Source of the DNA: Citrus sinensis | Taxonomy: Eukaryota; Streptophyta; Magnoliopsida; Sapindales; Rutaceae | Reading direction: 5' to 3' | Assembly: GCF_022201045.2 (NCBI RefSeq) | Contig: NC_068564.1 | Coordinates: 4,526,001-4,590,000, forward strand | Length of the DNA stretch: 64,000 bases | Part shown: one piece after another, positions 5,042-49,721 of the stretch | Position numbering within the stretch: the stretch's first letter is position 1 | Layout of the letters: every line of letters begins with the position of its first letter | Notes under the pieces: model-generated | Seen by the model: only the letters and a program-made list of their open reading frames with translations | Told to the model about the DNA's origin: nothing | The model's database searches: none | Position numbers and translations under genes: made by a program

Positions 5042-8000
5042 ATGATAAACTCGAAAGCGCAAGAACAAGTAGTCGAAAACGACGCCGGAAAAGGGGCAAG
5101 TTCGGGCAGACAAGTACTGCTCCCAGCGGCTTCACCAATTTGCACGCTTGGTATGGTGGCAACAGAGAATAATAGCTTCCTCTTTTTCATATCAACTTTT
5201 TTATTTCCATATTTGTCCCTAACTTAAATATTCATCTTTACATATAGATGCTGCAACAAGTCATATTAAAGTGTACTCATTTTACGAGATTGATCCCACA
5301 AAGCTGCCCATGAATGCCCCGGATCAGCTTAAATCAATCAGAATTGTCATGGTAAAAATAGACATCAAATTATTAAAAAAAGCCAGAAATTAAATTAATT
5401 AATAATCTCATTAATTTATGCGTAATAATAAGGTGAGCGAGAAGTCCAGAACAGGAGTAGCCGTGAGATTCCCAAGTGTGAACTCTCTTCGATTGCACTT
5501 GTGCGATGGTGAGTGTGGTAAAGAGCAGGGAGCAAAGAGGGTGCCATCGCTGGACGAAAAGTACTTGTTGGAACCTGAGGTGGCAGGAGAAGTACTTTAC
5601 AGGAGGGTCTCTGGTGATGAGATTGGTGAGAACAAGAACTTGTGGAGTTTCTGGGTTGTGGGTTTTAGTGGTTCTTTTGATGTTGAGATTCATCAGAATA
5701 AAAAGGGTGTGGGCTGGTCTGAGCTGCTTGATAGTCGTGGGATGCTGAAGTGGGGGAAGAAAAAGAAAGTTCATTACTTGAAGAATGAAGAAGCATTGAT
5801 TAGCTATGATGGGGTTAAAGGAGGAGGAGGAGAAGAAGAAGAAGAAGAGGAAGCTTTGAAGTCTGGTCAGTTATTAGTAGTTGAGGGAGAGACCAGTGAG
5901 CTTAAGAGAAAACTCCATGAGGTTAATGTGCTATCCAATAACATCAAGAAGAAGAAGAAGACGGTTGTCAATAAGAACTCCAACTCCAGATGGCCTAAAG
6001 AGAGGTATGCCTTGGCTGAAACAAATATGTGGAAGATAATGAAGATGAAAAATGCAGTTTTTCATAAGCCAATGCTGAGGCCAGAGCTAAGAGCAGAGGC
6101 TAGGAAATTGATTGGAGACACGGGTTTGTTGGATCATTTGCTGAAGCACATGGCAGGGAAAGTGGCACCTGTTGGACAAGATAGGTTCAGGAGGCGGCAC
6201 AATGCTGATGGGGCCATGGAGTATTGGTTGGAGAGTGCTGATTTGGTTAATGTTAGGAAACAAGCTGGAGTTCAGGATCCTTATTGGACACCACCGCCTG
6301 GCTGGAAACCTGGTGATAATCCTGCTCAAGATCCTGTTTGTGCTGCGGAGTTTAAGCAGCTCAAGGAAGACTTGGCCAAAATAAGAATGTAAATATGCTC
6401 ATTAATTAGCCTGCCTTCCAGTGCTGCTCCTATAAATGCCTTATTGATGGTATATACTGATCTTCTCTTGTTTCCTCTGTCATGTGTTTAAAAAACAACA
6501 GGGAAATGCAAGATCTGTTTTCCAAGAAGCAAGAGGATAATCTGGCTATTGTAGCCACCCCAAGTCTAAACTATGGGCATGATAGTTTCTTGCTTCGATT
6601 GAAGGTAAATATTGGAGAGTGGATTGGATTCTGAGTTTCGTACTCTGTCGTTAACTGTTTGGTATTTTGTTGGCAGCTGATATGCGCTGATCTGCTGAAT
6701 AAGAAAGCTAAGCTTGATGAGAATATGATGGAAATTTCGCAATCTTTGTGCACAATAGAGGTATTTTCCTCTTTAAGCTACTGAGTGATTAGGTGTCTAA
6801 TGTGAAGAAATTGATGTCTTCCAGTGCTTAGAATTTATATTTTAATACTAACATAAGCGAAGTTTTACCAGCAGAGCTCATTCATGCACCCCCACAGCTC
6901 CTTACAATCTTTGAAATTAGATAGAGTTCAAAATTACAGACATTCAATAAGATGTGAAAAAATTGTTTCAATTTTCTTCAGGATATGATTTTCCATTTCT
7001 AGTTCCTTCTCATATAAAGGGACAAGGGTGGCATTACTTTATGATCAACATATGCTTGAAATGCTTGAACAACTGCCTTCAGCTCTTAATGTTACTTATT
7101 TTTAACAACATTTAAAGTATCTCTGAAAAAGATGAAGAATGAAGATTGACTTGGGATAAATAAGTGGTGACTCATGCAGGAAGAAATGGAGAAGGCAAAA
7201 TTAGCTGTGGGGGAACTAAACAAGCCAGCAGAATCATCACTTACTTCAGCTGACGGACAGGGAGGCAAAGATAAGACAATAACAGGAACACCAGGTACAA
7301 CAAAAGTGAAACCAGAGGAGAAGGTAGCAAAAATAGAAAGACTGAAGAGTGGGTTCACAATGTGCAAGCCACAGGGTTCCTTTCTGTGGCCAAACATGGC
7401 CATGTACCCTCCGCCTAACAAGGTTGTGGCCCAGCTTGAAGACCTGTTTTTGATTCCTACACCACAATCAGTCTCCTCTTCCACAGCCTCATCATCAGCA
7501 CATCACCTCCTCCCGCCCCTTTCAAATTCTAATCCTCTACCGAATTGCCCTGTCAAGCCAAAAGCTGAGAGACGACCTGTTACTGTCGCTCTGACGGCAG
7601 CTGTCACAAAACCTACTCATCCTCTTCCTCCTGGAACCATGTCTCAGTTTGAAACAATCACCAGCACTGGCGTTATTACTACAGATACTAGCACCAAACC
7701 CTCAATGATTGACCTCAATGAAATGCCCTGCCCCCACACTTACCAAAGAAGAAATCAGAATGAGACTGTTACCACCAATGTCATCCCATGTGTATGTCTT
7801 GCATCACAATCTCAGTTTTAATTTTTTTTTTTTGGTTAATTTAACATGACAAAATGTAGTTGGTTTGTATTTCATGCATTGGGATGCAGTTTGGAGCTCC
7901 TGTTAAAGACTCTGAGATAAGCCAAAGTGAGCAAGATGAAAGAAAGAAAATCTTGAGGGAATGTGACCAAAAGCAGAAGGGAAGCTCCTCCGCTACCTCA

Positions 8001-8045
8001 TTATCATCTTCATCATCATCTACATGCTTGTCAAGGGTTTCTTGA
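5042..8045 (+). CDS. DYAD: DYAD/SWI1 (AMEIOTIC1)-like nuclear protein, copy A
   Basis: Exons: 5039-5150 (coding from Met at 5042), 5248-5351, 5433-6388, 6502-6604, 6677-6760, 7180-7791, 7890-8045. All junctions are GT-AG and the chain reads through for 707 codons. The conserved DYAD/AM1 block lies in the large exon from RWPKERYALAE to the end: GDTGLLDHLLKHMAGKV, RFRRRHNADGAMEYWLESAD, AGVQDPYWTPPPGWKPGDNP. It is preceded by acidic and lysine runs (EEEEEEE, KKKKK) and followed by a coiled-coil-like exon and a Ser/Pro-rich tail ending in a serine run. Arabidopsis SWI1/DYAD and maize AM1 act in the nucleus at meiotic entry and in sister-chromatid cohesion; that role here is by family only. Copy B has a 21-codon first exon that has no usable equivalent here, so the start at 5042 is inferred and this copy may use another leader or be poorly expressed. 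Homology to copy B continues about 65 bp past the stop. Confidence 0.82.
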
Positions 8046-9365
8046 ACTTGGTTGGCTTCAGCTACTCCTAATTCCCCACCTTCAGATAGTAACTCTACAC
8101 GGGGCTGATATATATATATATATTAGTAAATAATATATACACTCTTATATTTACAGGAAAAAAAATTTGGAAGATTTCAATATGTAGCTTCATGGAGATC
8201 ATATGAAGGAGAAGTAGGGGTTTTGAACACTGGTGATTAATGTTTATGCTGTCTTTTCTTGGAAAATTATTTAGAAGAAATTGAAACTATTCAAATCATT
8301 GCAGGAGTGGTAAGTTGTTCTAAGATCCTGAATTTTATTAAAATTTAGGAAAAATTGACCATAACGTGAACATACTTTTACAATGTTGTAAATTATTTGA
8401 CAATATTATAAAAATATGTTCACATTATTATCGACTCATCCCAAATTATAAGTTTAGATTAAAAATTTCCACGTTGCCCCATTTTGTGTTTTTGTTGGTG
8501 GCCCAACCTCCTACGGTTTGATGCTATGTTTTGCTCAAGGACATGCAATTAGTTGAATTTGAATATACTTTCTCTTTCTGCTTGCAATATCATAAGTTGC
8601 ACAAAGAATGAAACTTGAAAACAATGTTTCCCAGTATTTATTTATGATTGAGGGATTGCATATGTTACAAAACTAACGTTAAAAATTTCTCACTGGGTTC
8701 AATAGCTAAATTAAGCTAACTTAGGAGAATTTGTTTTAAAAACAGCACTTGTTTGCCAAATATATAGCCTAAATCGACAGAAATCCCCCAATATAATTTT
8801 TCCAAATCAGAGTTGCATGAAGGCCATTTGTGATTTTAGCTGCCACCTAACAACTCCATGCACAATTGCAAGTGTCCTACTCAAGTCAGACTCAGCCATC
8901 TAAACATTCCTAACTCGCCTTGTCAACTCCGAACAATCAAAGTCTACAAAACTCGAAGTCAATTTAGTTATGTACTTATTTGTCATTGGATAAATTGTGA
9001 ATTGATTAGACACAATCTTAATAATATTCACTTTTTATTAAAAGGATGATAAATGAAAAATTATAAAGAACCTCAAAGGTGACGCAATGGAAAACAAAAG
9101 TAATATTAGACCTATGTGAAATTATAGTGTAAATTTAGAATCCGTATGGGAATATATAACTTTGTACGGATTTAACGCTATTTTTCTCACCACTGTGTTA
9201 GAAACTTCGATTCAAATATCAATGTTTTTTCTTTAAACCATTTTTGTCAATCTTAAAGGACTAAATTACATTTAAAAATATCAATATTTTAGACTAAAGA
9301 GTCTTCTACAAGCAAAAACACTTCCAGTTCTATCCGGCATGGTCTTATACCATTCCGGCTGTATT
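8046..9365. other. Intergenic, 3' flank of DYAD copy A
   Basis: The first 65 bp match the 3' flank of copy B. A short (TA)n run lies at 8107-8122. The rest is AT-rich with no gene or repeat recognised. Confidence 0.5.
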
Positions 9366-9373
9366 TCTATAAG

Positions 9374-10064
9374 TAGGGGTGGGCATCAACCCACCCAACC
9401 CGTGAACTGGACCCAACCTGTGTGATTTTTTGCGGATTTGGTTGGGTTGATAAAATAAATGGGTTAGGTTGAGTTGTTAAATTCCCAACCCGCATTATTT
9501 GCGGGTTGGGTTGGGTTAAAAAATTTTAACTCAACCCAACCCGTATATATATATATATATTATTTTATAAATTTTGATATTTTATATAAAAATTAAAAAA
9601 AATATTTAAAACTTTGAAATGTTAGATTTGTTCTAAAGATTTTAATATTTGTATTTTTTTAGTTTATCCAATTAATTTACTTATTTTTGTTCACTATTTA
9701 ATTAGACTATAACAATAGATTTTTTTCAAAAGCCCAATTCAATTAATCTAACTAAACTGGACAACTTGCATGTATATAAAAATTATTATATGAATTTTGA
9801 TATTTCATATAAAAATTAAAAAAATATAAACATAAAAACTTTGAAATATTGGATTTTTTCTAAAAGTTTTAATATTTGCATTTTTTTAGTTTTTTAATTA
9901 ATTTATTTTATTTTTGTCACTATTTAATTAGATTATAAAAATAATTTTTTTTCAAAAGTCCAACCTAATCAACCCAACCGCAATTTTACGGGTTGGGTTG
10001 AAAAATTTCAACATGTTCTACATGCGGGTTGGGTCGGGGTGAACCCGACCCGTGCCCACCCCTA
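9374..10064. mobile_element. Non-autonomous hAT-type MITE, 691 bp
   Basis: The ends are inverted: TAGGGGTGGGCA on the left and TGCCCACCCCTA on the right. They are flanked by a perfect 8-bp target-site duplication TCTATAAG (9366-9373 and 10065-10072), the hAT size. Both subterminal regions are crowded with caaccc / gggttggg repeats in opposite orientation, as expected for transposase-binding sites. The core is AT-rich and non-coding. A perfect TSD and clear ends suggest a fairly recent insertion. Confidence 0.9.
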
Positions 10065-10189
10065 TCTATAAGTCCCATTTTCATTGTTAGACACTTTTCT
10101 ATAGACAATACTTACATATTGTGTCATAGGTTACAGTCCTGAACCCGAAAGGTGAGTTCTAGATTACATATTATGTCATAGCGACATGA

Positions 10190-13100
10190 AAGATGAAGAT
10201 AGCGGAATGGCAATCAATGTTCGTTGGAAATTGTCCATTGCAGATTTCATCTACAAATACTACCATAGAACATCAAGTTCTCATCAAACATGGGCTCAAC
10301 TTCAGTGACAATTTTTATTGGATAGCATCAGCATTGGATTCACCTCGGCATCGACTCATCTAAAAGGTAATTTAAACACATTATCATGAAGACAAATAAT
10401 AAATAGCGCTATCCACTTTGTACTAACCTGAGAAAAACGAAACTTTTGCAGCTCCAGGGAGATCTCGACCTATTATTTCTCATTCATAGGCACCTAATCG
10501 AAAGAGAAAAGACGGATTAAGCAATACAATTGAAGGAAAAAAATTGCAATCAGCTGATGCAATAGAATATGCTGCAGACACAAAAACAAAGGGTGAGAAT
10601 CTATGTTTATATACTATCCATAAATAACATCGTTAGCTTTAATTAGTGTTTTTGTATATTGTTCAATCAACAGTGATGATTTTGTTGATACTTCTAAGGT
10701 AATTACATTGTACTACTTTGTATGACCATTCTCATTTTCTAAAATTCTGATAGGTTAAAATTCATCAAATTTCTTTTACGTACTTCCCAGAAATTGGAAG
10801 ATTAAATGTTTTCCTCATAGAGTAAAGCTTCTTTAAGATATTACAGGTGCATTTACGCCTAGAATTCTTACGGCTTTACTGGGTATTAGCGGAGCCGGGA
10901 AAACAACATTGATGGATATGCTTTCTGGAAGAAAGACAAATGGTATGGTTGAAGGGGGGGAGACAAGAGTGAAGGGTACCAGACGGTCCAAAAAACATAT
11001 GCAAGAATATCAGGTTACTGTGAGCAAACTGACATACATTCGCCACAGATTACTGTTGAAGAATCGATAACTTAATTAGCTTGGTTACGCTTGCCAACTC
11101 AGATTGATACACATACAAAATCTGTAAGGTTATTTCAAACTTTGTCTGTTGGATTTTAGAATAATCATCAAATCAAAAGTTTTTTTTTTTTTTGGCAAAG
11201 GTTCAGTTATAAGATAGCCCCAACTCACCATTTATGTAACAGGAATTTGTAGCAGAAGTTCTTCAACTGATTGAGCTGGATGAAATCAAGGATACTTTAG
11301 TAGGAATCCGTGGTATTAGTGGTGTATCTAGTGGGCAGCGGAAAAGGCTAACCATAGCAGGAGAGCTTGCGGCCAATCCATCCATAATATTTATGGATGA
11401 ACCCTCCTCAGGTCCAGATGCCAGAGCTGCTGCAATTGTCATGCGAGTTGTTAAAAATATAGAACGTACAAACGGGACCATAATATGCACCGTTCACTAG
11501 CCAAGTACTGACATATTTCAGTCTTGCAATGCACAAGCCTTACTTCATCATTCTTCTGGACTTCTCTAACAAAATAATACTTAATTTTGAAATGCTTTGT
11601 CTTCCCATGGAACACTGGATTGTTAGAAATTGCTATGGCAGCTTGGTTATCAACAAAGATTTCAGTTGCATCATCCTGAATCATTTTCAAATCTGTCATA
11701 AGCTTCCTTACCATAAGGCTTGATTGACTGCAGCAGCAGCTGCAATATACTCAGCCTTAGCGGTAGATTGAGCTACGATTTCCTGCTTCTTTGAACTCCA
11801 ACAGGAACAACCTGAACCAAGACTAAACAAGTAGCTTGATGTACTTCTCATATCATCACATGATCCTACCTAATCACTATCAGCAAAACCATAGCTCGTC
11901 TGCCTTTTCAAATTTTATTCCATGATCCAAAGTTCCCTCAATATACCTGAGTACCCTTTTAGCAACCTTGTAGTACAATTCACTTGCACAATGCATATAC
12001 CTGGACAACAAACTTACAACAAATATTATATCAGGTCTTGTCTTTGTCAAATACATCAAGCAACCTATAATACTCCTATATAATGCCTCATCAATTTTTT
12101 AGCACCATCATTTTTACTAAATTTCTCATTTTGAGCCAAAAGAGTACACACTGACTTGCAATCCTCTATGTTGAATTTCTTTAACACTTCTTTAGCATAT
12201 TTTTGCTGTCCAATGAAGATCCCTTGCTGTGACTTTTGTATCTCCAGACCTAGAAAGAAAGTCATCTCTCCTAGATCAGTCATTTCAAATGCTTGCATAG
12301 TTTGAACCTTAAATTGCTTCACCAATTTATTGCTTCATGTGACAAGCAAATCATTAACATAAAGTGAAACAACAATCAATTCATGATTAATTACTTGAAT
12401 ATCCAAACTTGATTCACTCATGCTCTTGTTGAAGCCTATGTTCAACAAATGATCATCAATTCTGCTGTACTAGACTCTTGGGGCCTGCTTGAAGCCATAT
12501 AATGCATTTTTTAACAAGTATACTTTCTTTAGATCTGCAACAAAACCCTCAGGTTACTCAACAAAGATTTCTTCATCTAAATAGTCATTTTAAAAGGCTG
12601 ATTTACATCAAGCTGGTAGATTTTCCACTACTTTTGTGTTGCGAGTGGTAGAAGCAATCTGATGGTGTCCAGCCGTGTTATAGGTGCAAAAGTTTCAGAG
12701 AAGTCAACACCAAATAGTTGAGCATACCCTTTCATAACCAGCATTGCTTTGAATTTGTTTACAGAACCATCAGCATTAAATTTGGTTCTATAAACCCATT
12801 TCACACCAATAGCCTTCTTGTGTAGTGGTCTATCCACCAACTCCCAAGTTTGATTCTTGTGAATCATCTTGATCTCATCTTCCATTGCTTCAAGCCAATT
12901 TGGATCCTTAGCAGCCTTATCATACCCTGTAGGTTCAAGCATAGCCATATTGCACTTTTGATAAATTTTTGTAAGTGGTATGGTACCTGTTATTGGCTCA
13001 TCATTAATTATATCATCATCTTGCAATTCTGATACTTTTTCTTCTGCATAAACTTGTTCAGGTTCAGCTGTTGCCCAATTCCATCTTCCGGCTTCATCCA

Positions 13101-16100
13101 ATTTAACATCTCTACTTACTATGATTCTTCCCGTTAAAGGTTGATAAACTTTGTAACCTTTGGTGAGAGTGCTGTATCCTATAAAAACTCCATATTTTGC
13201 CTTTTGATCCATTTTCTCTCTTTTTGCATCTGGAGATTGAGTAAAACACAAGCAACCAAAAATTCTCAAGTTCTGAATAGAGGGTTTAAAACCAAATCAT
13301 GCTTCAAAAGGTGTTTTTCACTTTAAAGCCTTTGTTGGTAACCAGTTTTGCAGAAAATACAGCAGTATTGACAGTCTTAACGCAAAACGCTTTTGGCATT
13401 TCCTTCTCAAACAACAGACATCTAGCCATCTCCATAATTGTCCTGTTTTTTCTCTCACTGACTCCATTTTGTTGAGGTGTATAGGTTGCTGTAAGTTGAT
13501 GTTCAATCCCTGCAGCTTCTCAAAACTTAACAAATTTATCAGTTATATATTCAATCCCATTACTAGACATAATCACCTTGATTTTACGGCTACTTTGATT
13601 TTCAATCCATGTTTTTAACTTCCAAAACACACTAGCAACTTCAGACTTTTGTTTGAGAAAATAAACCCAACACATTCTACTAAAATCATCAATAAGAACT
13701 ATAAAGTACCTGTTACCATTTAAGGATGCACTCCTCATAGGTCCACAAACATCTGTGTGGATCAACTGAAGCTTCTCAATTGCTCTTCATGCCTTATTAA
13801 CAGGGAATGACAATCTAACTTGCTTTCCCAGCTGACAAACTCCACATACTAATGCTCCTCCTCCATTGAAAGTCATTCCTTGCACAAGATCATTTTTTTT
13901 TTCATATAATCTAATGCAGAATAATGATAATGCCCCATCCGCTTGTGCCATAACTCAGCCTGGTTCATGGTATATTGATATGCACTAGATTCATCCTTGT
14001 TTCAATTTAAGCTGAAACGTTTGCTGTTTATTTTCATAGAGAACAACACTACACCATTTGGGTCAATAATGACACACATGTTAGTCTTAAATACAACAGA
14101 ATAACATTTCTCAAGCAATTGTCCCACATTCAACATATTTCGATCAATTTTAAGAATAAGTAATACATCAGAAATTAACTTTATACTTGTTGATCTTTTT
14201 ATTGCAACTATCCCTTTACCTTTCACTTCAATAAACTGCCTTTTGCCAACTTTAACTCTTGGCACTTCTAACTTGTTTACTTCTTTGAAAATAGATTCAT
14301 TGCAAGACATGTGATTTGTGCATCCATTGTCTATGAGCCAATCATCACTTGAACTGTTACTCGAAAAACAAGATACAACAAAAAATTGCTCATGTTGTTG
14401 TTGTTCTACTGCTTGAGCTTGGTGTCCTACTTGTTGTTTGTGTTTACACACCCTCTCCATATGTTCCATTTACTTGCATGCCCTGCATTGAATGTCAAGC
14501 CTTAACCAACATTTCTTTTGTGGATGAGAGGTTTTCTTACAATGAGGACACGGGGAGTGCTTGCCCTTGTTGCCTTCATTGATGCTACTTTCCCACTTCT
14601 TGTAATTCTTCTTACTCCATTGTTTCTTTTCTTTGCTGCCTCCTTGAGTTTGATCAGCCTTTTTCACTTGAAATGCTCCTTCAATTGTCTCCTCTTTTCT
14701 GTAAGCTCTCCTTTGTTCTTAAGCTTGTAGTGCATTGATGAGCTCTACCAATGTTATTGTTGACATATCTCTAGACTCTTCAAGTGAAGAGATTTTAGAT
14801 TCAAATCTCTCTGGCAAGGTCACCAAAATCTTCTCTACAACTCTTTTATCATAAAACTCTTCCCCTAGCATTTTAATTTTATTGGCAATCATCATCAACT
14901 TATCTTTGTAGTCATTAACTGTTTCTGTCTCCTTCATTTTCTGCATTTCAAATTCCTTTCTCAGGTTCAGGACCTGCATTTGTTTTGTCCTAACATTCCC
15001 CTGATATTCTTGCTTCAAAAGATCCCATGCATGTTTCACTGTTTCACATGTCGTGATCTTTGTAAAAATTGTCTCTGAAACTGCAGAGTGGATGCATGTC
15101 TTGGCCGTATATCCCTGTCATTCCTCATATGAGCTATTGGTGGATCCTCAGGATTTGCTTTCACCAAGTCCCATAAGTAACATGCTTGCAGGTATGATTC
15201 CATTTTCACAGCCCATATTTGATAATTTTCACCTGTGAAAACTAGAGGAGCTGATAAGAAACCATTTCCTGCTGTATTGAATTTTAGGTTGAAGACTAAG
15301 TGTTTGATTTAGTGTAGGAAACCTCTATGGATTCACTCACACCAGGTCCCTTAAGAATAAGGGCTTTGATACCACTTTGTTGGTTTTAAACAAAGAAAAG
15401 AGAAAACAGAAAAATTGGGGCTGTTAATTGCATATCATTCATTGCTGCAGTATTTGAATTTATACAGAGAAAAGAAACAAACAAAGCCAAAAAATCTGCC
15501 TACATATCTTTAACATATATCTGATATCATAAAATTCAAAAACAAATTGTTCATATAATCTTGCAGGATATTATTGACAAAATAATCATATCTTGCTGTT
15601 TTTATTTTTGCTCAAATCCTGCAGCAAATATATCATTGTCATCATGATAAAAACTAATTGCAGCAATACAATATTGTCATCTTCATCATGTTCAAGATTG
15701 TTTAATCTCAAAGATGTAAGTTCCCACTGCCACTGATTATTGCATGACTAAATTCTTGGTGATCAATGCTAACGTGTTTGGACCTCATGGGTAAAGCTTT
15801 AAGTAAACAAAGTGGAATTCCATGTTTCTGCCAAATCATTTATCAAATAATAAATCTTGCAGCTGATGTTGATGAAAAGAGGAGGAAAAATTATATATTT
15901 CAGAGAACTGGGTCAGAATTCAAGCAAGCTTATTGAATGTTTCGAGGTAAGCTCAAAAGAGTTAGCAATATACGAGAGCACACTACAGATTGCAAAAACA
16001 AAAGCTTAAGATTTAAGGCTTATATCTTTTCTGGCAGGGAACTTCTGGGGTGCGAAAAATCAAAGAAAATTACAATCCAGCAACATGGATATCACAGTTC

Positions 16101-18856: not shown

Positions 18857-19248
18857 TAAAACCATTAAGAAGATCCCATTAGGACATAAAAGAAGATCCC
18901 AGGACACTGAGGTGTCAAATGTTCAAATAATGCACATTCCATTCAAGAGAATAATGCATTAACTTATAAATAACTCTCAGGTTAATTTTTACTTACTTTT
19001 TTTTTCACTTTTTAATTCTCTTTTTATGTAAAAAAATGCCAAAAGAGTTTGAGATCAATTCCTACTTCAGTATGCAGGATGCTCAAAACTCTTATGAGTT
19101 TTGAACTATTTTTTAACTTGTAAGAACTATCGATACTAAATATAGTAATTTCGCCTTGCGAAGTTTAATATTCTGTGTGCATAAATTAAATCTTAATTAA
19201 TTTTAAAATAATCATGTGTCGAATTACTATATAAGTATAGTATAGAAT

Positions 19249-20183
19249 TAGGGATGGCAATTGGGAGGGGAGGGGAGGGGACCGATCTCCCCGTACCCAT
19301 CTCCGATATTTTGCGTATGTCCCCGTCCCGTCCCCGTCCCCGTCAGAATTACTTGAGAGAATCCTCATCCCCTCCCCGAATAATAACAGGGGATCCCCGA
19401 ATAACTAATTTTTTTTTTTTCAATTTTGAGTTAATCATATTAAAATAAAAAATTCAAATAAAAGCAAAGTTCGAAATATATCTTACATTAATATCTATTA
19501 CAAAAGTCACATACATTAAATTAGTAAGTAACGCAACATGCAAGGAATACAAACTTCTTTTACAAAACTATCATGAACAAATTAATAGTTTAATACAAAA
19601 TTGTTACAAATAAAATTGAATTTAGATTCAAAATTAACTTTTTCAATGGTAGCGTGGGCACTTTATAAATGTGGACTATTCTCTTTACAACACAATAGTT
19701 AAATCGGAGCAAATCAAAGCAAATATTAGATTAGATTAGATTAGATTAAATATTAAAATTGTGATTCGCTGTGGGCAATTATAACATCTAAAAATAAATA
19801 AAAAATAGATTTAAGTTTAAAATATTTAAAGAATATTAAAATTAAAAAAATGTTTGGCTAATAGAATCTACTCGGTCTTTTTAATGTTCTAAATAAAAAT
19901 TTAGGACTTTAATTAGTTAATTAGGCCTAAAAGTTTAATAATATAAATATTTTGATATTTTTTATTTTTACCAATATTTATAATTTTATAATTTAAATTT
20001 TATAATTTATTTACTAGTAATTTTAAAAAATTAAAATGGGGAAATGGGTAGGGGATGGGGATTCCACCTCATCCCCGTTCCCTCCTCGAATAAAAAATTG
20101 GGTATGAAATTATCCTCATACCCTCCCCGAATGAGGAAAATCCCCGAGGGTACCCGTCCCCGTGGGGATTTTTGCCATCCCTA
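19249..20183 (+). mobile_element. Non-autonomous hAT-type MITE, 935 bp, copy 1
   Basis: The ends are TAGGGATGGCAA and TTGCCATCCCTA, flanked by a perfect 8-bp duplication TATAGAAT (19241-19248, 20184-20191). Both subterminal regions carry many cccgtcccc / ggggagggg motifs. No transposase reading frame is present. A copy in the opposite orientation lies at 61482-62438 and matches along its whole length, so both were probably mobilised by the same hAT transposase. Confidence 0.93.
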
Positions 20184-28216: not shown

Positions 28217-28954
28217 TTAATAATCCCAGCAGAGTATCTCCTCAAACTGGAACCCCATATGACCAAATTCAGCCTGTTGCCACCATGAACTGTCACAAAA
28301 TCTGTTCTTACCATCATCTCCTTCAAGAGACAGATCAGGCAGATGGTCGAACCATGCACTGTCTCCTTCAAGAGACAGATCAGGAAGATGGTCGAACCAT
28401 GCACTGTCACTGTCATCCGATGAAGAATGATCATGATGATCAGCAGAATTTTTATTTTCGTCGTGGCACGTTGATTGAGTATCATTATTGGCCTCAATTC
28501 TTCTTGGTGAATCAAATATAGCAGCAGCAGCAGCCTTGGCAGCCGCGGCCTGGATGTCTTTAGGAGCTGCACTGGCTGGCCGGGGTAGCTCGTCGGCTAG
28601 CTCGGGAAAATTCAGGTGAGCCGAGTGACCCTTTATTGCAAGTGCAGCAACGTCGTGTGCTCGAGCTGCCATTTCTGCTGTGGGGAAACTTCCAAGCCAG
28701 ATTCTTGACTTTTTTCTTGGCTGACGAATTTCGGAAACCCATTTGCCCCAGCTTCGCATTCTAACTCCACGGTACGTTGGATATTTATTTAAAGCATTAG
28801 CGCCATTGTTGCATATTTTCTTGTTACTTTCATTCTCATTATCAATTGTAGGACTCATGAATTCCTTGTTTGCTTGCTGTGATTTTGAACTTTTCTTGCT
28901 TGTTGGGGTGCTGGAGGGAGAATATGAAGAGAAATTTTTGTCGTCAGTGTCCAT
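28217..28954 (-). CDS. AP2/ERF transcription factor, DREB A-4 (TINY/ERF034-039) type
   Basis: Single-exon gene of 245 aa, intronless as usual for DREB genes. A Ser/Lys-rich N-terminus is followed by one AP2 domain at about residues 60-118: [51 protein letters not shown]. The run after the domain (DELPRP, then [15 protein letters not shown]) is the A-4 subgroup hallmark, and the C-terminus is acidic and ends CWDY. DREB proteins bind DRE/CRT promoter elements in the nucleus. Val14 of the DREB pair V14/E19 is present, but position 19 is Gln (EIRQPRKK), where Glu is usual. The acidic tail holds a 15-residue segment, [15 protein letters not shown], twice in tandem. Target genes cannot be told from sequence. 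Confidence 0.93.
28320..28409. repeat. 45-bp in-frame tandem duplication in the ERF gene
   Basis: Two 45-bp units beginning ccttcaagagacagatcagg (28320 and 28365) differ at about two positions and both encode [15 protein letters not shown]. The duplication lengthens the acidic, probably activating, C-terminal region by 15 residues without changing frame. Confidence 0.95.
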
Positions 28955-38915: not shown

Positions 38916-38930
38916 AAGTCAAGGCCTCCG

Positions 38931-39274
38931 CCACTTCGACCTTGGTCGGAGTGGTGGGCTGCTGCCCTCACAATGCTTGTGAGGGCAGCGGTTCAAGCCC
39001 CCACAAAAGTATTTGTGGGGGCTAACGTACTTATTTGTTTAATATTTCAAAAATTTCCTCTCCCTCATGCAATACGAGTAGAGTATGGACATCCCTCTTT
39101 TGTAAGGGATTATTTATCTGGACATGTATTTCATAGAATTCAATGTAATAATATAAGTCCCAATCATATATTTCTGATTGTAAATATCAGTGTAATATAT
39201 CTGCTATAATAGCAGTTGTAAATATCTGTATAATGCAGTAATATGATGATTAATCAGTATTAAAAAAAAAAAAA
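38931..39274 (+). mobile_element. tRNA-derived SINE with 15-bp target-site duplication
   Basis: A 344-bp insertion ends in a run of 15 A and is flanked by perfect copies of AAGTCAAGGCCTCCG (38916-38930, 39275-39289), the mark of LINE-driven retroposition. The head has a pol III B box GGTTCAAGCCC at 38990-39000 and a hairpin gccctcacaatgcttgtgagggc before it. No coding capacity. The tail motif attgtaaatat...cagtatt before the A-run also occurs in the element at 54412, so both are one SINE family. The perfect duplication points to a young insertion. Confidence 0.88.
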
Positions 39275-39548
39275 AAGTCAAGGCCTCCGAGAGAGGGGCG
39301 TGATTGATGATTTCCAAACTATTGGGTTGAATTGATAATTATAAAAACCTGAGGGGGGACCGATGGTATTAACCTAAAATTTAATATTACCGACTTGAAT
39401 TGTATCCGAACCGTTGGGGTGCTGGCCAACTGGGCTTGCTTCTCAATCAATCCAACTAACTGGCAACTGACGAGTACCTAACTTTCAACGGAACCAGTCT
39501 TCATCATCAGTTCATCACTTGCACTATGCACTTGGGGTAGCTTTGCCA

Positions 39549-42500
39549 ATGGAGAATAGTAGCTTATGGGACAAGTGGGTTGAAGAAGCGCTTTCAAAGC
39601 TTGAAGCTTTGAAAGTGCTTCGCTCTCTAAGACCCATTTATCTCTCCCCCAATGACCGCCACCACCGAGTGCGAAATCCAGGACACGTTGGTGAAGATTA
39701 CGAGGTGTTCGACGAAATGCAGCACTGGGATCGAAATGCAGTTCAAATTTCAATTTCTGACTCCACATTCCAGAGATGGCTTCATGACGTTCCAAGTTCT
39801 GGTACTCTCTCTCTCTGTCTCTCTGTCTCTCTGTCTCTCTGTGTATGTGTGTGTTAAAATTTTAATGTGGTTTTCATTGCTGGGTTCAACATATAGACAA
39901 TAGCTGGATGAATGTATGTTATACTTTTGTTAATGGTTTTTGTTCAGGAGATGAGAATGAGATTATTTGCGGAGATGGTCTAGCAAATGATAAGACTATA
40001 ACTTTTGCTAGGCAGTTCAAGAGGCTGCTATTGTTTTCTGGAAATGATTATTTGGGCTTGAGTTCGCATCCCACTATTGCAAAGGCTGCTGCCAGGGTCT
40101 GCTTCATGATTTATGCTGCTCTAACACAATTATTTTCCTTTGTCATTGGTTTAATGCACTTTTGGAGCTAAGATATTTTGATTTTTACTTTAAATTAGGC
40201 AGCACAAGAGCACGGAATGGGCCCAAGGGGTTCTGCTTTAATCTGCGGTTACACCAATTACCATAGGTTACTAGAGTCATGCTTGGCGGATTTAAAGAAG
40301 AAGGAGGTATAGCTTTACTTAGCTTATGTTCTTTATAATTGTTTTTATTTTTTATTTTTTTAATGACTTGCGCTTGCTTATTATAAATAAAATACCCATT
40401 TTGGCCACAATGTACTGGATTAGAACAACACAAAATTGCATGTAGAGGGTGAACATGACATGTTGAAGTGAAAGAAATAAATTAAGTCATACATTTTTCA
40501 TCTACTATGGACTATGTTTCTTCTAGCATTCCTTTTATATCATTTGTTAAAAAATGAAAATGAACATCAAAAATTGATGACCCTACTTGTTAACTGGCTC
40601 ATTTTCCTTTTTATTATCTTATATAATCAAATCTATTGTCCAGATAATTGATTAAAAATTTAGATCAATGAAAATTTTGTTGGAGATAAATTATGTGTTC
40701 TGCATTGGGTTCATTTGACTATAAACTCTATGTTGTGTGACTAAATTAGTACAGTCATCTAACATTCTTGTTGCAATTTGTACTCTAGGATTGTCTTCTC
40801 TGTCCCACAGGCTTTGCAGCCAATATGGCTGTGATTGTAGCAGTTGGAAACATTGCCTCTCTCCTAGCTGGCGATGAAAAATCTTTTAAAGATGAAAAAA
40901 TTGCCATATTTTCTGATGCACTAAACCATGCATCAATAATTGATGGTATTCGTATTGCTGAGCGGACTAAAATGGTTGAAGTTTTTGTATATAAACACTG
41001 TGACATGTCCCACCTCAAGACACTGTTGTAAGATTTCACCTTTCAAAGAATTTTTAGTGTCTTAGTTTTCATTAGGCTCCACTCTGTTACTGCTGCATTG
41101 TGTTTTTGTTGTCACAGATCATGTTGCACGATGAGGAAAAAAGTTGTTGTAACGGACAGGTAAACCTGGGTTACAACTGTTCTTTCAATACCATGGTTTT
41201 CATGCTCCTTTGGAGCTGACAAAAAATAACAAACAATAGAGATCTAAGACATCACTATTCAGGACTAAATGCTTGTTGGGTATTTGGCTTCTTATTTATT
41301 ACCCCTGAGTCCATTAATCACTTGGGGAGCCTTGCTTTTATCTTGCTTTACGATGAACTGTCAATTTGCATCTCGATTTTCAGTTTTCTTCTTGTTATTC
41401 AAAAGTTTTTTTTTTCTGCTATAGTTTCTTGTTCATTCGAACAATATTAGGATATCTATAAACTCTTTATACTTGGTTCACTCATTCTATAATTCACAGT
41501 TCCTTAGTCTTTTGGAATTATTTATCTTTATTTATATGACTCAAGATGTCTAGGTTTTCAGTAACTGTACCAGTTGTTGTCAGATATGTCATTCTAATAT
41601 GTTAGTCTATTACATAACTTTGCTTAATTTGCTAAACATACCAATGTTTTATTTTGTGCTCCTGCATTCTGAATATGCTTCATTCTCTCCCTTCTGCAGC
41701 TTGTTCAGTATGGATGGAGACTTTGCACCAATGGTTGAACTTGTGAAGCTTCGCAGGCAGTATGGCTTTCTGCTTGTCCTAGATGATGTGAGCTTTCTTT
41801 CTAATGTCCAAGATTTTACCTTTTAAGTAATTATTTGGAGCTTATCCATGCAATTGGCCACAGATTAAGCAGTAACCTCATCAATTTCATTTGACACTTT
41901 AAATTAAGATGAAGCACTCTAGAATTTCAGTCTTTAAAAAGCATCTTAGTATCTCATTTGAAATTTGGCTTACTTGATCATTAGTTAGTCCATGTTAATC
42001 TTGTGAATGATAAATAAAGTGGGCTTAATGTTGTTCACATATTTGCTGCAACTATATGCTACCCTATGATTAAGAACTACAATGCTGATTGCTTTCAGGC
42101 TCATGGGACCTTTGTTTGTGGAAAAAACGGTGGGGGAGTGGCCGAACAATTTAACTGTGAAAGAGATGTAGATATATGTGTTGGCACTCTGAGTAAAGCA
42201 GCAGGTTGTCAAGGTGGCTTCATTGCATGCAGGTAATTCATTTGCACTCTCCTCTTAAGGTTCCATTGAATAAAAGAGTGCAGAAAAATGTATCCTCATA
42301 GATGGCTAGCGACAGGATTATTTAGCACTTAAAATAGATTATCTACGCCTTCTCTTTTTAAGATTTCACCTTATCTTTTAAAGGTCTCACCTCATAATTT
42401 TTGCATTGACTTTGTAAACCAAGGGAAAATGTTTGCCCCATTGCTGGCCCACAAGAAGGTTATTTAGCTCGTAAAATTGATTTATCTGCACCTTAGTTGT

Positions 42501-45388
42501 TAACACCTTAGCTGTTAATGTTTCACCTAATAATTTATGCATTGACTTTGTAAAGCCAGGGAAGATTGACTGAGATTCTATAGGCACTCTATTTAATGTT
42601 GTGTATACATTTTGGATTGGAGTGGGAATTCCGGGAATAGGAGTGTGGAGTGGGAGTGGGAGTAGGTTTTTTACTTAAACTGGAATGAGAGCATGGAATT
42701 GGTAGTAAATGATTTTAAATTATAGTTTTTAATTACAAAATTAATAAAAAAATAGATTTGAAAAATAAAATATTTATTTTATTATATTTGTAAATTAATA
42801 ATAATTATTAATATTCTTAATTATGTAAATAATTTTTTGTTAATTTTAATTTTAATTATGTAAATAAAAAATTATTATTAAGAGCAACACAAATGAAACA
42901 TTATTATTAATAATATAATACAAAATTAATATTTTCTTAGAATAAAATATTGATTATTATTAATTACTAATATTAAATAAATATAATACTATTTTTTTAA
43001 ATAAATATAATAATATTATATTTTCAAATAAAAAGAGTATATAGTAATATTATTAATTCTCTATGAGTACAAATAATATTATTTTTAAGTAATTTTAACT
43101 TAGAATCAATATAAATTATTATTTTTAATAAGTATAATTTATAAAATAATATAATAATATTATTTAAATAATATGATATTATTTTATTTGATTAAATGTA
43201 AGGATAAAAATGGAAGAGGGGGGAGTGGATTCCCACTCCCACCTCCCCCCATGGGAGTGGGATTCCCACTCCCCCCTTAAAATTAGTAAGTAAATACTGG
43301 AGTAGGAGGAATCCAGACTCCTCACTCCCACTCTAGCAAGTAAACACTACCCTAGCTGCTATAACATTTGAGTGCAGTTACACTTTCACAAATTCACAAA
43401 ACCGTTATCTAATCAATTTGGGGTATTGCTCGACCATCAGATGTGATTACATTTTTTATATTGCAAAAAACTATTCTTGTGATAGTAGAATGTAATCCAT
43501 TTCTTTGACCCAAAGGACTAAAGATTTCTAATTCTAAACATTAAATTCTGATTGCTTCCTGTTAATCAGTGAAGCTGGGTTTTGTTCTGTTAGCAAGTTT
43601 ACAGCTTTATTTATTTTCACATGAGTGGCATTTTATTTGTCACTTCCATTGTCTTAGTTGATCTAAAAATTATCTCATGGACATAGTATGCCATATTCAT
43701 ACGACTATGGGCCACGATACATACTCATTACACATTTTCTCAATGACATTTTAACAGCAAAAGTTGGAAGAAATTCATACAATCTAGAGGCCGCTCTTTT
43801 ATATTTTCAACAGCCATACCGATCCCCATTGCAGCTGCTGCACATGGTAAATATCAGTATTCATTTTTATTGGGTTGACTTAAGGTAGACTTGTGTAAGA
43901 ATCAGTTTTTCTACTCTTCTGTTCTGTGGTAGTCATTTATCCTGTGTCGAGACTAGTCAATATGGCGAATAGTATATATGACCAATGAATTGTTCTTTTG
44001 GGGAAAACCCAATTTTGCTTCTGGATATGAGTCCCAATGTCAAATTGAGTTGACTGGATTATCCAGATTTGAGGTTGATTTTGGGGAGGAAAAGTGCATG
44101 AAGATTCTGTTTGATTTGTCCACCTGTACAGTGGAAGATCACAAATTGAAAAATCATTTACATTGCATAGTCGTAGATATTAATATGCCCTATCCCTATC
44201 TTATAGCCATCCCCATTTTGTTTTGGTATGCTCTGTTGTTGACAAAATAAGCACGACCTAGCAGCTGCTGTTATTGTGTCAAATAAGGAAACATGGCGTA
44301 GAAGGGCAATTTGGAACCATGTGCAATACTTCCATGCTCTTACTGGAATTCCCATAACAAGTCCCATTATATCTCTTATTGTTGGGAATGAAGAGAAGGC
44401 TCTGCAAGCTAGCAGGTTTTTCCTCTCTCTTTCTCTCTTATGTATGTGATAACAAATTAACAATTAGAACTACTGTAGCTTCTAACTGTTTCAATCTTCA
44501 TGGAACAGGCATTTGTTAAAATCTGGTTTTCATGCAACTGCAATCAGACCTCCAACAGTGCCAGCCAACTCATGCAGGTTTGTTGCAGTTCCATCATAAT
44601 CCCTCAATACCTTGTCTGCTTGAGCATGTCAAATTACTTCATGCATGTGCGTGCTGCTTTCCTTTGATGTTGACTACCACTGATTTGAGTCTTTAGCTTT
44701 AGACGGTGCCAACAGGTGCTCACTCCCATACAGTTAAGAGTATAGTTCTTGAGTGTTCTTACACATGCATTCACCTAAAATGTTGTGGCTGTTGTGACTT
44801 AATTGCTGATACAGTACAAGCAACGAAGGTTTCCAATGGCTGAATCAGAATGTAACAGTTAGATCCTTGTGCATGGGGATTGCTTATTTTCAATTAGTAA
44901 TACTAAGCCTTCATTTTAAATTTACAAACCACTGATTTTTTAAGTTGGCTTTTTATTGTCCTCATTTGTCCTCCAAACTGTCTGGCAATGCCGACAGATA
45001 AAGCCAGTTCCTAACTAATATATTGATGGTTCAACATAAACTAAACTAAAAATGTGTTTACAAACATTGAAATATTTTTAAAAGTCTACGAAGTAATTAA
45101 AGAGTTGAAATTCATGTTGGTTTTTTTTTTAAAATCTTTTGGCCTGTGTCGCGTTATATTGATCCAGCCTCGTCAGATTTGGTTTGGTTGGTGTATTGTC
45201 AATATCTTTGCATCAGAAATGTTTCAATAATTAATTTTTCCTCTTGATTCTTCTTTATCAGGTTGCGAATAACTCTAACTGCAGTGCACACTCAGGATGA
45301 TATCAAGAAGCTTACCATAGCACTCTCTAGTTGTGTCAACTTTCAAGACATTGTCAGCCATAACTCAAATGTGTATGCTAAGTTGTAG
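39549..45388 (+). CDS. BIOF: 8-amino-7-oxononanoate (KAPA) synthase, biotin biosynthesis
   Basis: Eleven exons: 39549-39801, 39948-40096, 40199-40306, 40789-41027, 41118-41159, 41700-41787, 42099-42232, 43758-43846, 44262-44415, 44509-44577, 45262-45388; 483 aa, the usual plant length. The PLP enzyme joins pimeloyl-CoA (or its carrier form) and alanine to make KAPA, the first committed step of biotin synthesis. Seen are the substrate-binding GNDYLGLSSHP, the glycine-rich HGMGPRGSALICGYT, the cofactor Asp and His of LDDAHGTF, and the Schiff-base Lys of TLSKAAGCQGGF (about residue 326). The protein ends in AKL, a type 1 peroxisomal signal; plant KAPA synthases have been reported in peroxisomes. 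There is no obvious transit peptide. Intron 7 (1.5 kb) is inflated by a MITE and a local duplication. It converges on DYAD copy B, 880 bp away. Confidence 0.96.
39585..39621. repeat. 37-bp near-perfect palindrome inside BIOF exon 1
   Basis: GAAGCGCTTTCAAAGCTT and its mirror arm GAAGCTTTGAAAGTGCTTC meet almost without a loop, with one mismatch. The codons read EALSKLEALKVL. The complementary strand codes for a closely similar EALSKLQALKAL in its own frame, which is why a long shadow frame exists on the minus strand. Confidence 0.9.
42314..42562. repeat. Imperfect direct repeat (about 110 bp) in BIOF intron 7
   Basis: The blocks ggattatttagcac and gcattgactttgtaaaccaaggga (42314-42425) return as ggttatttagctcg and gcattgactttgtaaagccaggga (42456-42562), at a spacing of about 142 bp. 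The central parts have diverged. Confidence 0.75.
42594..43353. mobile_element. MITE in BIOF intron 7 (gagtgggag family)
   Basis: An AT-rich 760-bp block has GC-rich ends made of gagtgggagt on the left and cactcccactc on the right. The outermost bases are inverted: taatgttgtgtatac on the left against gtaaacactac on the right. A truncated relative at 60392-60567 ends agtaaacataacatta, supporting taatgtt.tgtttac as the family end. No clear target duplication was found. Non-coding. Confidence 0.6.
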
Positions 45389-46267
45389 GGCTTAATAAGT
45401 TTTCTTGTAATTCAAGGAGAACCCAGTAAATGAAATTGTGACAGTTGTCGCAATAGTATGAACCCCTATTCATCCCATCCTTTTAGATTTGAACCACAAC
45501 CTCAAAATTTGGTTATGGCAATGCTTAGAGATAAATTTTTTGAAAATAGCGTCTACTGAAATAGAAATTCAAAAAGTGAAGAATGCTTGAAAGTCAAGAG
45601 TCAAAAGCTATTGAGTAAACATTGCACAAAGAAAAGGCCATTGAATGCAAAGTTACTGAGTCCGGAAGTCTCTGGACTTTAGTTTTGTATATTTGCCATC
45701 ACCCAAATATATACTTGTTCTCTTTTCAAATTTTCCCCTTTCTATCGGAACATTATTTTAAAGTTTCATTATGGGTACAGCATTAGAAAAAGCAACTAGC
45801 AAGCTGAAAGAGAGAGAGTTATATATGGTCCTTAAGCAAAGTAGATCATCAACCAATAGGAAGTGGACGAGACCACCAACATGCACACAACATATGCAAT
45901 GGTATATGAATATATAGATTCATTTCTTGCAAAACTTTTCCCAAGAAAGGAAAGCATAATCTCTAGTAATTGTTCATAACTCCTATGAATAGTTTCATTT
46001 CTTCTAAATATTTTTCCCAAAAAGGGAAGCATAATCACCATGTTCAAAAACTCTTGTTTCTTCCTAATATCTTAATAAACCTATAAATTGAATACCCATC
46101 TTCTATAATTTTCCCCTCCCCCCAATATCTGTAAGAGTATATATTCTTGTATATATTATTTACTAATAAAAACTAAAAAAGAAAAATATGTAACAGCTGT
46201 AATGGCAGTAACGTTCAGCCCCTTGTAGAGTTACTATCCAAAGGGAATTAGGAGTAGTTGAAGCCAA
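45389..46267. other. Convergent 3' flanks of BIOF and DYAD copy B
   Basis: AT-rich DNA holding both 3' UTRs. The 65 bp next to 46267 match the 3' flank of DYAD copy A. A duplicated motif around aggaaagcataat / agggaagcataat (45950 and 46022) is minor. Confidence 0.5.
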
Positions 46268-49200
46268 TCAAGTCCCACATACCCTTGGTAAGCATGCAGA
46301 CGATGATGATGATGATAATGATGAGGCTGAGGAGGAGCTTCGCTTCAGCTTTTGGTCACATTCTCTCATGATTTCCTTTCCTTCATCCTCCTCTCTTCCG
46401 CTTATCTCAGCATTCTTATCAGCAGCTCCTAACTGCACCCCAATGCATCAAACAGAAACCTATTTTAATTTAACATGTTAAATTAACCCAGCAAAACAAA
46501 TTGAAACTGAGTTTGTTAAGCAATACATACAAAGGGGATGGCACTGGTGGCAATTGTCTCATTCTGATTTCTTCTATGGTAAGCGTGGGGAGAGGGCAAT
46601 TCATTGAGGTCAATGATTGAGGTTTTAGTGGTAGGAGGCAAAGTATTGACAGCAGTGTCGGTGATCGTTTCAAACTGGTTTATGGTTTCAGAAGGAAGAG
46701 GATGAGTTGGTTTGGTTACTGATGTCAAAGTGACAGTAACAGGTAGTCTCTCAGCCAATGGCTTGACAGGGAAATTTGGGAGAGGCAAATTTTCTGAAAG
46801 GGGAGAGAAGAGGCGCTGCGGTGATGATGAGGCTATGGAAGAGGAGACAGATGGCGGTGTTGGAACCAAAAAGAGGTCTTCAAGGTGGACCAAAGCCTTG
46901 TTAGGCTGAGGGGACATGGCCATGTTTGGCCACAGGAAGGACCCCTGTGGCTTGCATAGAGTGAATCCACTCTTTAGCCTTTCTATTTTTGCTGCTCTGT
47001 CCTCTGGTTTCACTTTTGTTGTTTCTGGTGGTAATGTTGTTGTCTTGTCAATGCCTCCTTGTTTATCATCTGACGTGAGTGCTGATTCTGCTGGCTTGTT
47101 TGGTTCCTCCACAGATGATTTTGGCTTCTCTGTTTCTGCCTGCATGAATCATCATCATCATTTTTTTAAGGAATCCTAATATGTTGTTAAATGTAAGTAT
47201 CAGAGAGAGCAAAAGTTACAGCTGATCACTTATCAATCATTTCAAGCACGTGTTAAAGTAATGTCACCATTTATATGACAAAGAACTAAAAACGGAAAAT
47301 CACATTCTGAACTAAAGCGAAACAAAATTTTCACATCTTCTTAATTGTTTGCGTAATTTAAACTACTATAGCTAATTTCTAATACTGTAAGGAGTCGTGG
47401 GTAATGAGGTCTGAGGGCAAAATCATCAATTATGTTAGATTTTTAAAATATCAATTCTAAGCGTTGGAATAAATCAATTAGTTCATATTACACACCTAAC
47501 CCTGTCAGAAGCTGAAAAAGGAAAACAGTAATACCTCTATTCTGAACAAAGATTGTGTTATTTCCATCATCTGTTCGTCAAGCTTAGCTTTCTTATTCAT
47601 CAAATCAGCATGCATCTCCTGCCAGAAAATTATCAAAGAGTTAACAACAGAGTACAAAACTGAAGTGTCCAATCGACCTTTCAATATTTACCTTCAATCG
47701 AAGCAAGAAACTATCATGCTCGTAGTTTAGAACTGGGGTGGCCACAATAGCTTGATTATCTTCGTGCTTCTTGGATAACAGATCTTGCATTTCCCTGTAA
47801 TTACACAGAAAACAAGATAAGATCAGTGCATAAACCAACAAGACATATATAGGAAGAAGGCAGGCTTATTTACGGGCAGTACTTACATTCTCAATTTGGC
47901 AATCTCTTCCTTAACTTGCTTCAACTCTCTAGCACAAACAGGGTCTTGAGCAGGATTGTCACCAGGTTTCCAGCCAAGCGGAGGAGTCCAATAAGGATCC
48001 TGAACTCCAGCTTGTTTCCTAATATTAACCAAATCAGCACTCTCCAACCAATACTCCATGGCCCCATCAGCATTGTGGCGCCTCCTAAACCTGTCTTGGC
48101 CACCAGGTGCCACTTTCCCTGCCATGTGCTTCAACAAATGATCCAACAGACCCGTGTCCCCAATCAATTTCCTAGCCTCTGCTCTTAGCTCTGGCCTCAG
48201 CATTGGCTTATCAAAAACTGCATTTTTCATCTTCATTATCTTCCACATATTTACTTCAGCCAATGCATACCTCTCTTTAGGCCATCTGTAATTGGAGTTC
48301 CCATTGACAACTTTCTTCTTCTTCTTCTTCTTCTTCTTGATGTTATTGGATAGCACATTAACCCCATGGAGCTTCCTCTTAAGCTCACTGGTCTCTCCCT
48401 CAACTAATAATAACTGACCAGACTTCACAGCTTCCTCTTCTTCTTCTTCTTCTCCTTCTTCACCTTTAAAACCATCAGAGCTAATCAATGCTCCTTCATT
48501 CTTCAAGTAATGAACTTTCTTTTTCTTCCCCCACTTCAGCATCTCACGACTCTCAAGCAGCTCAGACCAGCACACACCCTTCTTCTTGTTCTGATGAATC
48601 TCAACATCAAAAGAACCATTAAAACCCACAACCCAGAAACTCCACAAGTTCTTGTTCTCACCAATCTCATCACCAGAGACCCTCCTGTAAAGCACTTCCC
48701 CCGCCACCTGAGGTTCCATGAAGTACTTTTCGTCCAGTGATGGCACCCTCTTTACTCCCTGTTCTTTAACACACTCACTCTCGCTGAAGTGTAATCGCAG
48801 AGAGTTCACACTAGGGAATCTCACTGCCACTCTTGTTTCAGACTTCTCAGTCACCTTATTATTATGAAACAAAAAATGAGATGAATTAATCAATTCATTA
48901 ATTTTAATTAGTGCGGTCTTTTCATATTTATATATAGTTTGATGTTATGTTTATTATTATACCATGACAATTCGGATTGATTTGAGGTGATCAGGGGCAC
49001 TAACGGGAAGCTTTGTTCGATCGATCTCGAAGAAAGAGTACACTTTAATATGACCTGTCCCGGGATCTATATGTAAAGATGAATTCAAGTCAGGGCCAAA
49101 TATGGAAATACAAAAAAAGCTTATATGAAAAACAGAAGAAGTTCTACCATCATCAAGTAGTGTAGTGGCAGTACCAGTCCTGACGCAAATTGGTGAAGAC

Positions 49201-49721
49201 GCTGGGAGCAGCACTTGTCTGCCCAAACTTGCTCCTTCTGCGACGTCGTTTTCGGTCCCTTCTTCTTCTTGTTGCCATTTTGGATGCATCATTTCCTGTG
49301 ACAGACGATATCGTTGAGAATCCACACGTAGTAGTGTAGTACAACTGATTCGTGCAACCAAAAAAAAAAAAAAAAAGATGACACGCGCTTGGTGCACGTG
49401 AAGGCGACACAAAAGTGAAAGTTTCTCAATCGTGGGCCCTTATGTTTTGAACATTTGTTGATATCTTGATATCGGCCGTCCGATGTGTTGAGGATGTTCT
49501 GATTTTGCTTCATCACTTTATCGTAGTTTCGATTGACGCCCGGGTTTTCGGCGCGTGGTGTTATGTGAAGTGAACGCGTGTGGTTGTTGCAGTTTGAGGG
49601 GAAAACGAAAAAATAAAAAATAAAAAACACGGAGGGAAGTCAGTGGGAGTGAGCTTACAGTGAGGCCAATGGCTACGTCGTTGAGATTCCAGCAGCTTTC
49701 ATCCTCGTCCATGATCATCAT
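46268..49721 (-). CDS. DYAD: DYAD/SWI1 (AMEIOTIC1)-like nuclear protein, copy B (complete)
   Basis: Eight exons on the minus strand: 49721-49659, 49295-49175, 49066-48963, 48854-47887, 47794-47692, 47618-47535, 47139-46531, 46432-46268; 738 aa in one frame. The N-terminus is acidic (MMIMDEDESCWNLNDVA). Exons 3-4 carry IKVYSFFEIDRTKLP and TRVAVRFPSVNSLRLHF. A seven-Glu run and a nine-Lys run precede the conserved DYAD/AM1 block (about residues 286-418: RWPKERYALAE, GDTGLLDHLLKHMAGKV, RRRHNADGAMEYWLESAD, DPYWTPPLGWKPGDNP). Exons 5-6 look coiled-coil; exon 7 is Pro/Ser-rich with SIIDLNELPSPHAY, and the C-terminus has a serine run. In Arabidopsis and maize, SWI1/DYAD/AM1 is a meiosis-specific chromatin protein required for meiotic commitment and cohesion; function here is inferred. 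It is an inverted paralogue of the gene at 5042-8045 and keeps the first exon that copy A lacks. Confidence 0.93.

Follow-up and report, generated by a model that had tools for sequence, protein, structure and literature searches.

An inverted pair of SWI1/DYAD-type genes in Citrus sinensis, with both copies retained as coding sequence

Two SWI1/DYAD-type genes occupy opposite strands and point toward each other in the stretch of Citrus sinensis DNA analyzed here, a window of 64,000 nucleotides that covers bases 4,526,001 to 4,590,000 of contig C9 (NC_068564.1, 34.0 Mb) and within which all positions are counted. The pair is a real and well-kept duplicate of a known meiotic gene, an arrangement that is unusual yet understandable and does not represent a new kind of system. 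We regard it as probable that an SWI1 gene was duplicated at the DNA level in inverted orientation, that both copies were kept, and that they encode two partly redundant SWI1 proteins differing most in the C-terminal region.

Structure and similarity of the two copies

Copy A lies on the plus strand (5042-8045) and encodes 707 amino acids in seven coding exons (5042-5150, 5248-5351, 5433-6388, 6502-6604, 6677-6760, 7180-7791, and 7890-8045), while copy B lies on the minus strand (49721-46268) and has eight (49721-49659, 49295-49175, 49066-48963, 48854-47887, 47794-47692, 47618-47535, 47139-46531, and 46432-46268), giving a protein of 737 amino acids if translation starts at 49718 or 738 if it starts at the in-frame ATG of 49721. 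The facing arrangement 38 kb apart reported by the first-pass annotation was found at these positions, with 38.2 kb from stop to stop (8045 to 46268), and both reading frames are open as it had claimed, with GT/AG at every modelled junction. Seven exons are shared by the two genes. Their lengths in A and B, respectively, are 109 and 121 bp for exon 2 (measured from the ATG in A), 104 and 104, 956 and 968, and 103 and 103 bp for exons 3 to 5, and 84 and 84, 612 and 609, and 156 and 165 bp for exons 6 to 8; the equal lengths noticed earlier for the 103- and 84-bp exons thus extend to the 104-bp exon as well.

The two proteins are 78% identical (552/706 aligned residues), and the main BLAST alignment of the DNA, introns included, shows 79% identity over 3408 columns (E = 0, 2916 bits), a similarity far beyond chance. 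Conservation reaches 91% in the SWI1/DYAD core, which occupies 5973-6386 on the plus strand in copy A and 47889-48302 on the minus strand in copy B. Homology had been described as entering the introns, which was borne out, and as continuing for only about 65 bp past the stops, which proved too short: the 3′ flank of copy A (8046-8679, plus strand) pairs with 46267-45676 beside copy B. By blastn this match extends to approximately 8293 on the A side and 45986 on the B side, and a gap-tolerant alignment of 8251-8700 with 46040-45601, which overlaps the end of the blastn match, reaches 8679 and 45676 (for 8253-8679, 235 of 316 aligned positions identical, 145 gap columns, and none of 200 shuffles as good).

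Relation to SWI1 and to other loci

The core of copy B is identical to that of Arabidopsis SWI1 at 104 of 140 positions and the core of copy A at 102 of 140, in agreement with the DYAD/SWI1-like identity first proposed for the pair. The reference was a putative Arabidopsis SWI1 sequence of 639 residues, in which [S/T]P sites number 13 and RxxL motifs lie at 306 and 559. Since the length, the [S/T]P count, and the RxxL positions agree with those stated in PMC6465247, this reference is probably sound. N-terminal blocks matching the PDS5-binding residues 1 to 300 of SWI1 are conserved in both copies when aligned to this sequence. As far as these comparisons go, the pair appears to be rightly placed with SWI1/DYAD and, among the loci compared, closest to SWI1.

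The core, the N-terminal blocks, and a C-terminal motif (GF..C.P.G.F.WP) are common to the reference SWI1 and the pair. Unlike in Arabidopsis, two diverged copies lie in one place, and both have a longer C terminus than SWI1. Each contains a DLNE(L/M)P stretch, which is missing from the reference SWI1 and presumably resembles an EAR-type repression motif. There are 8 [S/T]P sites in B and 5 in A against the 13 of SWI1, and by hand count from the alignment 6 of those in B and 3 of those in A follow the core, two of them being common to both. RxxL motifs are present in both copies, but the canonical D-box places of SWI1 at 306 and 559 are not kept, as read from the alignment.

Pfam returned no family for the whole of copy B, for the exon 4 open reading frame (ORF) of copy A, or for the core of a related locus on contig C7; neither the complete B protein nor the exon 4 ORF of A gave a PHD finger match at E ≤ 0.01 after the GDTGLLD block. 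A sequence search of the PDB gave a single, chance-level match (E = 0.65). The core structure predicted from two sequences (mean pLDDT, 59.6) runs helix-helix-helix-strand-strand and then two more helices, which by eye recalls a winged helix. As a PDB search with this model gave 393 matches at E ≤ 10, none at E ≤ 0.001, and a best value of 0.07, we make no claim of a fold.

The genome searched comprises 299.7 Mb in 11 contigs, nine of 24.8 to 52.3 Mb and a further two measuring 632.5 and 132.5 kb. A search with protein B returned 18 matches at E ≤ 0.01; of these, 14 are pieces of the two window copies, the remainder being two at C7:6.09 Mb, one at C2:23.68 Mb, and one at C9:14.6 Mb. At the DNA level, copy B found six matches, namely its own sequence, three segments located at the A end, and a pair of short matches (36 and 38 bp) elsewhere. 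The C7 locus (approximately 3994-6156 of 6090001-6100000) is a third, divergent DYAD-like locus of the genome. Its core can be aligned with the pair and is identical to B at 82, to A at 79, and to the reference SWI1 at 82 of 134 positions, so that the pair and SWI1 are about equally far from it. In contrast to the pair, the locus is interrupted by an additional intron close to where the core begins, and it contains three coiled-coil stretches that resemble one another as well as a second, partial core; an exon may have been duplicated within it. The matches on C2 and at C9:14.6 Mb belong to PHD-finger-type proteins, which we assume to be of the MMD1/MS1 type. They share with the pair a short block containing GDTGLLD (38% and 33% identity, respectively) and differ from it in their longer open frames and in a cysteine-rich PHD-like block, identified by eye, that is not seen in the pair.

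Maize and rice AM1 are SWI1 homologs, and both bind Arabidopsis PDS5A in the yeast two-hybrid assay (PMC6465247). AM1 is described as having domains at both termini that are absent from SWI1, and the central region shared by the two is termed a PHD finger domain (PMC3180651). The gene had been called normally low-copy in the first-pass annotation, a description that rests on a published proposal: PMC6813927 cites the view that duplicated meiotic genes revert to a single copy more quickly than the average, but the same paper reports no significant loss of meiotic duplicates in wheat. The C7 locus adds a further DYAD-like locus in this genome. A search of the openly licensed literature, with partial coverage and mostly of titles and the beginnings of abstracts, found no published report of a citrus SWI1 pair.

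In Arabidopsis meiosis, SWI1 guards sister-chromatid cohesion; its residues 1 to 300 bind PDS5A and release WAPL1 from PDS5A, and its removal is governed by CDK sites, above all nine C-terminal ones, together with D-boxes, most of the CDK sites and the degradation signals lying in the C-terminal region (PMC6465247). On the model of this work, the Citrus proteins are predicted to hold sister chromatids together in early meiosis through PDS5 binding and WAPL displacement. The two copies would be partly redundant and may differ in timing, in removal, or between male and female meiosis. The unequal number of [S/T]P sites after the core makes the timing of removal a candidate for such a difference, the numbers being too small to serve as proof. 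A second copy kept for so long would let one ask, in a natural setting, whether plants are constrained to a single SWI1, and knock-outs of SWI1 in this plant may need to hit two genes. The pair merits notice among researchers working on meiosis and on citrus.

A decayed third copy and the start of copy A

We found no intact counterpart of B's exon 1 for copy A, the match being a decayed fragment about 1 kb upstream of A. This fragment forms part of a relic of a third copy, A′ (3895-4618, plus strand), in which a decayed exon 1 and intron 1 extend to 4285, exon 2 and intron 2 resume the match at 4428, and the opening bases of exon 3 follow. In the exon 1 of the relic, ACG replaces the start ATG, 23 bp are deleted, and the donor is disrupted. 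Local alignments of A′ outscored all shuffles (100 under strict and 200 under gap-tolerant scoring). Over the stretch of exon 2 and intron 2, 18 sites are common to the relic and A but not B, 7 to the relic and B but not A, and 36 to A and B to the exclusion of A′; thus, A′ is a long branch that lies nearer to A than to B.

The upstream regions were compared under strict scoring and afterwards under gap-tolerant scoring, the latter over short stretches that were each set against 200 shuffles. A UTR-like stretch before copy A (4834-4971, plus strand) pairs with 50013-49884 of copy B, which presumably holds the 5′ UTR and a UTR intron (96 of 126 aligned positions identical, none of 200 shuffles as good), and exon 2 of copy A follows this stretch directly. 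On the promoter side of B, beyond the presumed transcript start at approximately 50013, no counterpart was found beside A: the strict alignment yielded the intron 1 and UTR stretches only, blastn of 1-4000 against 56000-49701 gave short weak matches only, and 4619-4850 of the A side aligned with the upstream side of B at chance level (64 of 200 shuffles as good under gap-tolerant scoring). Lax gap scoring had aligned the entire upstream region with a score of 1632, compared with a maximum of 905 among shuffles; we disregarded this alignment because its details were not reliable.

Given this order of relic, UTR-like match, and immediately adjoining exon 2, copy A probably lost its exon 1 in the collapse of a partial direct duplication. 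With its first coding exon lost, copy A most likely starts translation at 5042, within the B-type exon 2; an in-frame TGA lies upstream of this ATG, past two further codons. Because the acceptor sequence that precedes GAAATG in B is present in A as well, copy A may conceivably also carry an unrecognized upstream exon.

Age, constraint, and alternative readings

The pairwise NG86 estimates for A and B are a Ks of 0.293 (95% bootstrap interval, 0.231 to 0.356), a Ka of 0.122, and an omega of 0.415 (0.323 to 0.536), and an MG94 codon model gave an omega of 0.50 and rejected omega = 1 (LRT, 27.0); these omega values are averages over the branches of both copies. The exon-by-exon calculation proposed at the outset gave omega values of 0.93 for exon 2, 0.17 for exon 3, 0.29 for exon 4, 0.36 for exon 5, 0.31 for exon 6, 0.61 for exon 7, and 0.40 for exon 8, the short exons having wide limits. 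By region, omega is 0.37 before the core, 0.21 within it, and 0.52 after it. All six coding indels are multiples of three, compared with 5 of 29 in the introns and 3′ flank (Fisher P = 2.8 × 10−4), and where 48.4 frameshifting coding indels would be expected at the noncoding rate, none was seen. With the reference SWI1 used for polarization, 24 amino acid changes fall on A and 20 on B (chi-square, 0.36). Taken together, omega, the indel pattern, and the nearly equal numbers of amino acid changes indicate that selection has maintained the coding function of both copies during most of their history after the duplication.

Silent rates of 2 to 6.5 × 10−9 per site and year, which are not calibrated for this pair, would turn the Ks of 0.29 into an age of approximately 22 to 73 million years. 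As to the order of events, we infer that an ancestral SWI1/DYAD gene would have been copied long ago at the DNA level, introns and flank included, into a nearby inverted orientation, and that an additional partial duplication, direct in orientation, at the A end would have given rise to the relic and to the loss of A's first coding exon. Both copies would thereafter have been retained as coding genes, with the PDS5-binding-like region and the DYAD core staying alike and the C-terminal region diverging most.

Silent divergence is not uniform along the pair. The central part of exon 4 (A, 5508-6320, plus strand; B, 48779-47955), a segment chosen after viewing the Ks profile, has a Ks of 0.163, less than half of the 0.375 in the remaining coding sequence. 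Gene conversion between A and B in this segment is slightly likelier than not. Selection on synonymous sites, or a low mutation rate at them, is a credible alternative that falls somewhat short of probable: amino acid divergence is low in the same segment (Ka, 0.044 versus 0.176), GC3 is slightly higher (0.47 to 0.49 versus 0.425 to 0.43), and the contrast with the introns (182 of 809 sites differing) is mild (P = 0.027), the rest of the coding sequence lying above the introns in silent divergence (P = 0.018). Against this alternative stand a silent rate of 0.151 in the segment versus 0.360 elsewhere (LRT, 14.4; P = 1.5 × 10−4, for a segment picked post hoc), the four-fold sites, of which 12 of 85 differ in the segment and 38 of 144 in the rest (P = 0.032), and scans of permuted codons, which allow for the post hoc choice. 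Among 2000 permutations, the observed minimum was reached once for blocks of 200 codons, twice for 260, 4 times for 150, 10 times for 100, and 177 times for 60.

The evidence of constraint bears also on the possibility that copy A is a recently silenced pseudogene, having lost its promoter-side sequence and exon 1 and not yet acquired disabling mutations, and that B alone does the meiotic work. Copy A has neither an intact match to exon 1 of B nor a detected match to the upstream sequence of B beyond approximately 50013, and it sits behind the decayed third copy. In addition, glycine has changed to valine in A at a core position where B, the C7 locus, and the reference SWI1 all have glycine, and with C7 as the outgroup there are 8 derived changes on A and 4 on B (chi-square, 1.33). 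However, the absence of frameshifting indels where some 48 are expected, the GT/AG borders at each modelled junction of A with no stop within its frame, and the near equality of its amino acid changes with those of B make such silencing unlikely. In the indel model, the observed pattern would have a probability of 0.0024 if one copy had been unconstrained for a quarter of its branch, and a loss of constraint over the last 5 or 10% of the branch (P = 0.3 and 0.09, respectively) would escape detection.

Returning to the reading in which both copies are retained, a bolder form of it appears doubtful to us: that this inverted pair of a usually single meiotic regulator has been held for tens of millions of years with its roles divided, either between early and late removal from chromosomes or between male and female meiosis, and with conversion keeping the DYAD core alike. 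The citrus group is characterized by nucellar seeds and unreduced gametes. If that form were true, changes to the removal signals of one copy could have consequences for how gametes form; in Arabidopsis, specific SWI1 mutant alleles lead to a small share of unreduced gametes (PMC3180651).

An assembly artefact, in which two haplotypes or one duplicated contig had been joined in opposite orientation and which the first-pass annotation had named as a way for its claim to fail, is extremely improbable at 79% DNA identity: the 21% divergence and the Ks of 0.29 are far above usual allelic differences, blastn of the A and B flanks gave short weak matches only, and the locus lies inside a 34-Mb contig. 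Taking the assembly as given, A and B are old paralogs and not haplotigs. A retrocopy was rejected, as introns are retained in both copies. A larger segmental duplication was not seen: blastn recovered the known gene flank and otherwise short weak matches when 8041-12500 was compared with 46270-41501 and 1-4000 with 56000-49701. The suggestion that the pair promotes inversion of the intervening segment found no support, and nothing observed indicates that this segment has inverted. The present identity is 79% and no identical run exceeds 73 bp, which presumably makes the pair a poor recombination substrate today.

The genes listed earlier for this interval could be traced in part. Pfam identified the AP2/ERF and 2OG dioxygenase genes, but gave no match at E ≤ 0.1 for the ATG3-like and BIOF-like readings, which come from short open frames viewed by eye. 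The ERF open frame (28217-28954) contains a near-perfect 45-bp tandem duplication (28317-28406) that adds 15 residues in frame. Copia-type retroelement pieces with several open frames lie on the minus strand at 11454-15308, one matching Pol_BBD and another SH3_retrovirus and RVT_2 in Pfam. A second inverted pair, 19246-20183 and 61482-62441 (83.7% identical), is unrelated to the SWI1 pair, being a dispersed repeat of about 0.94 kb present in at least 40 places including the query (42 match rows, with the best 40 of 929 first-look candidates scored; 61482-62441 was absent among the matches listed).

On the minus strand, the window further holds pieces of an ATS3/PLAT protein (1454-1996), of a zinc-binding dehydrogenase beside copy B (51517-51924), and of an expansin C-terminal domain (55178-55531). 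Tandem repeats mark its left end, with three copies at a spacing of 63 bp (101-289), nine overlapping registers at a spacing of 15 bp (671-845), and six copies spaced 75 to 81 bp apart (2499-2986).
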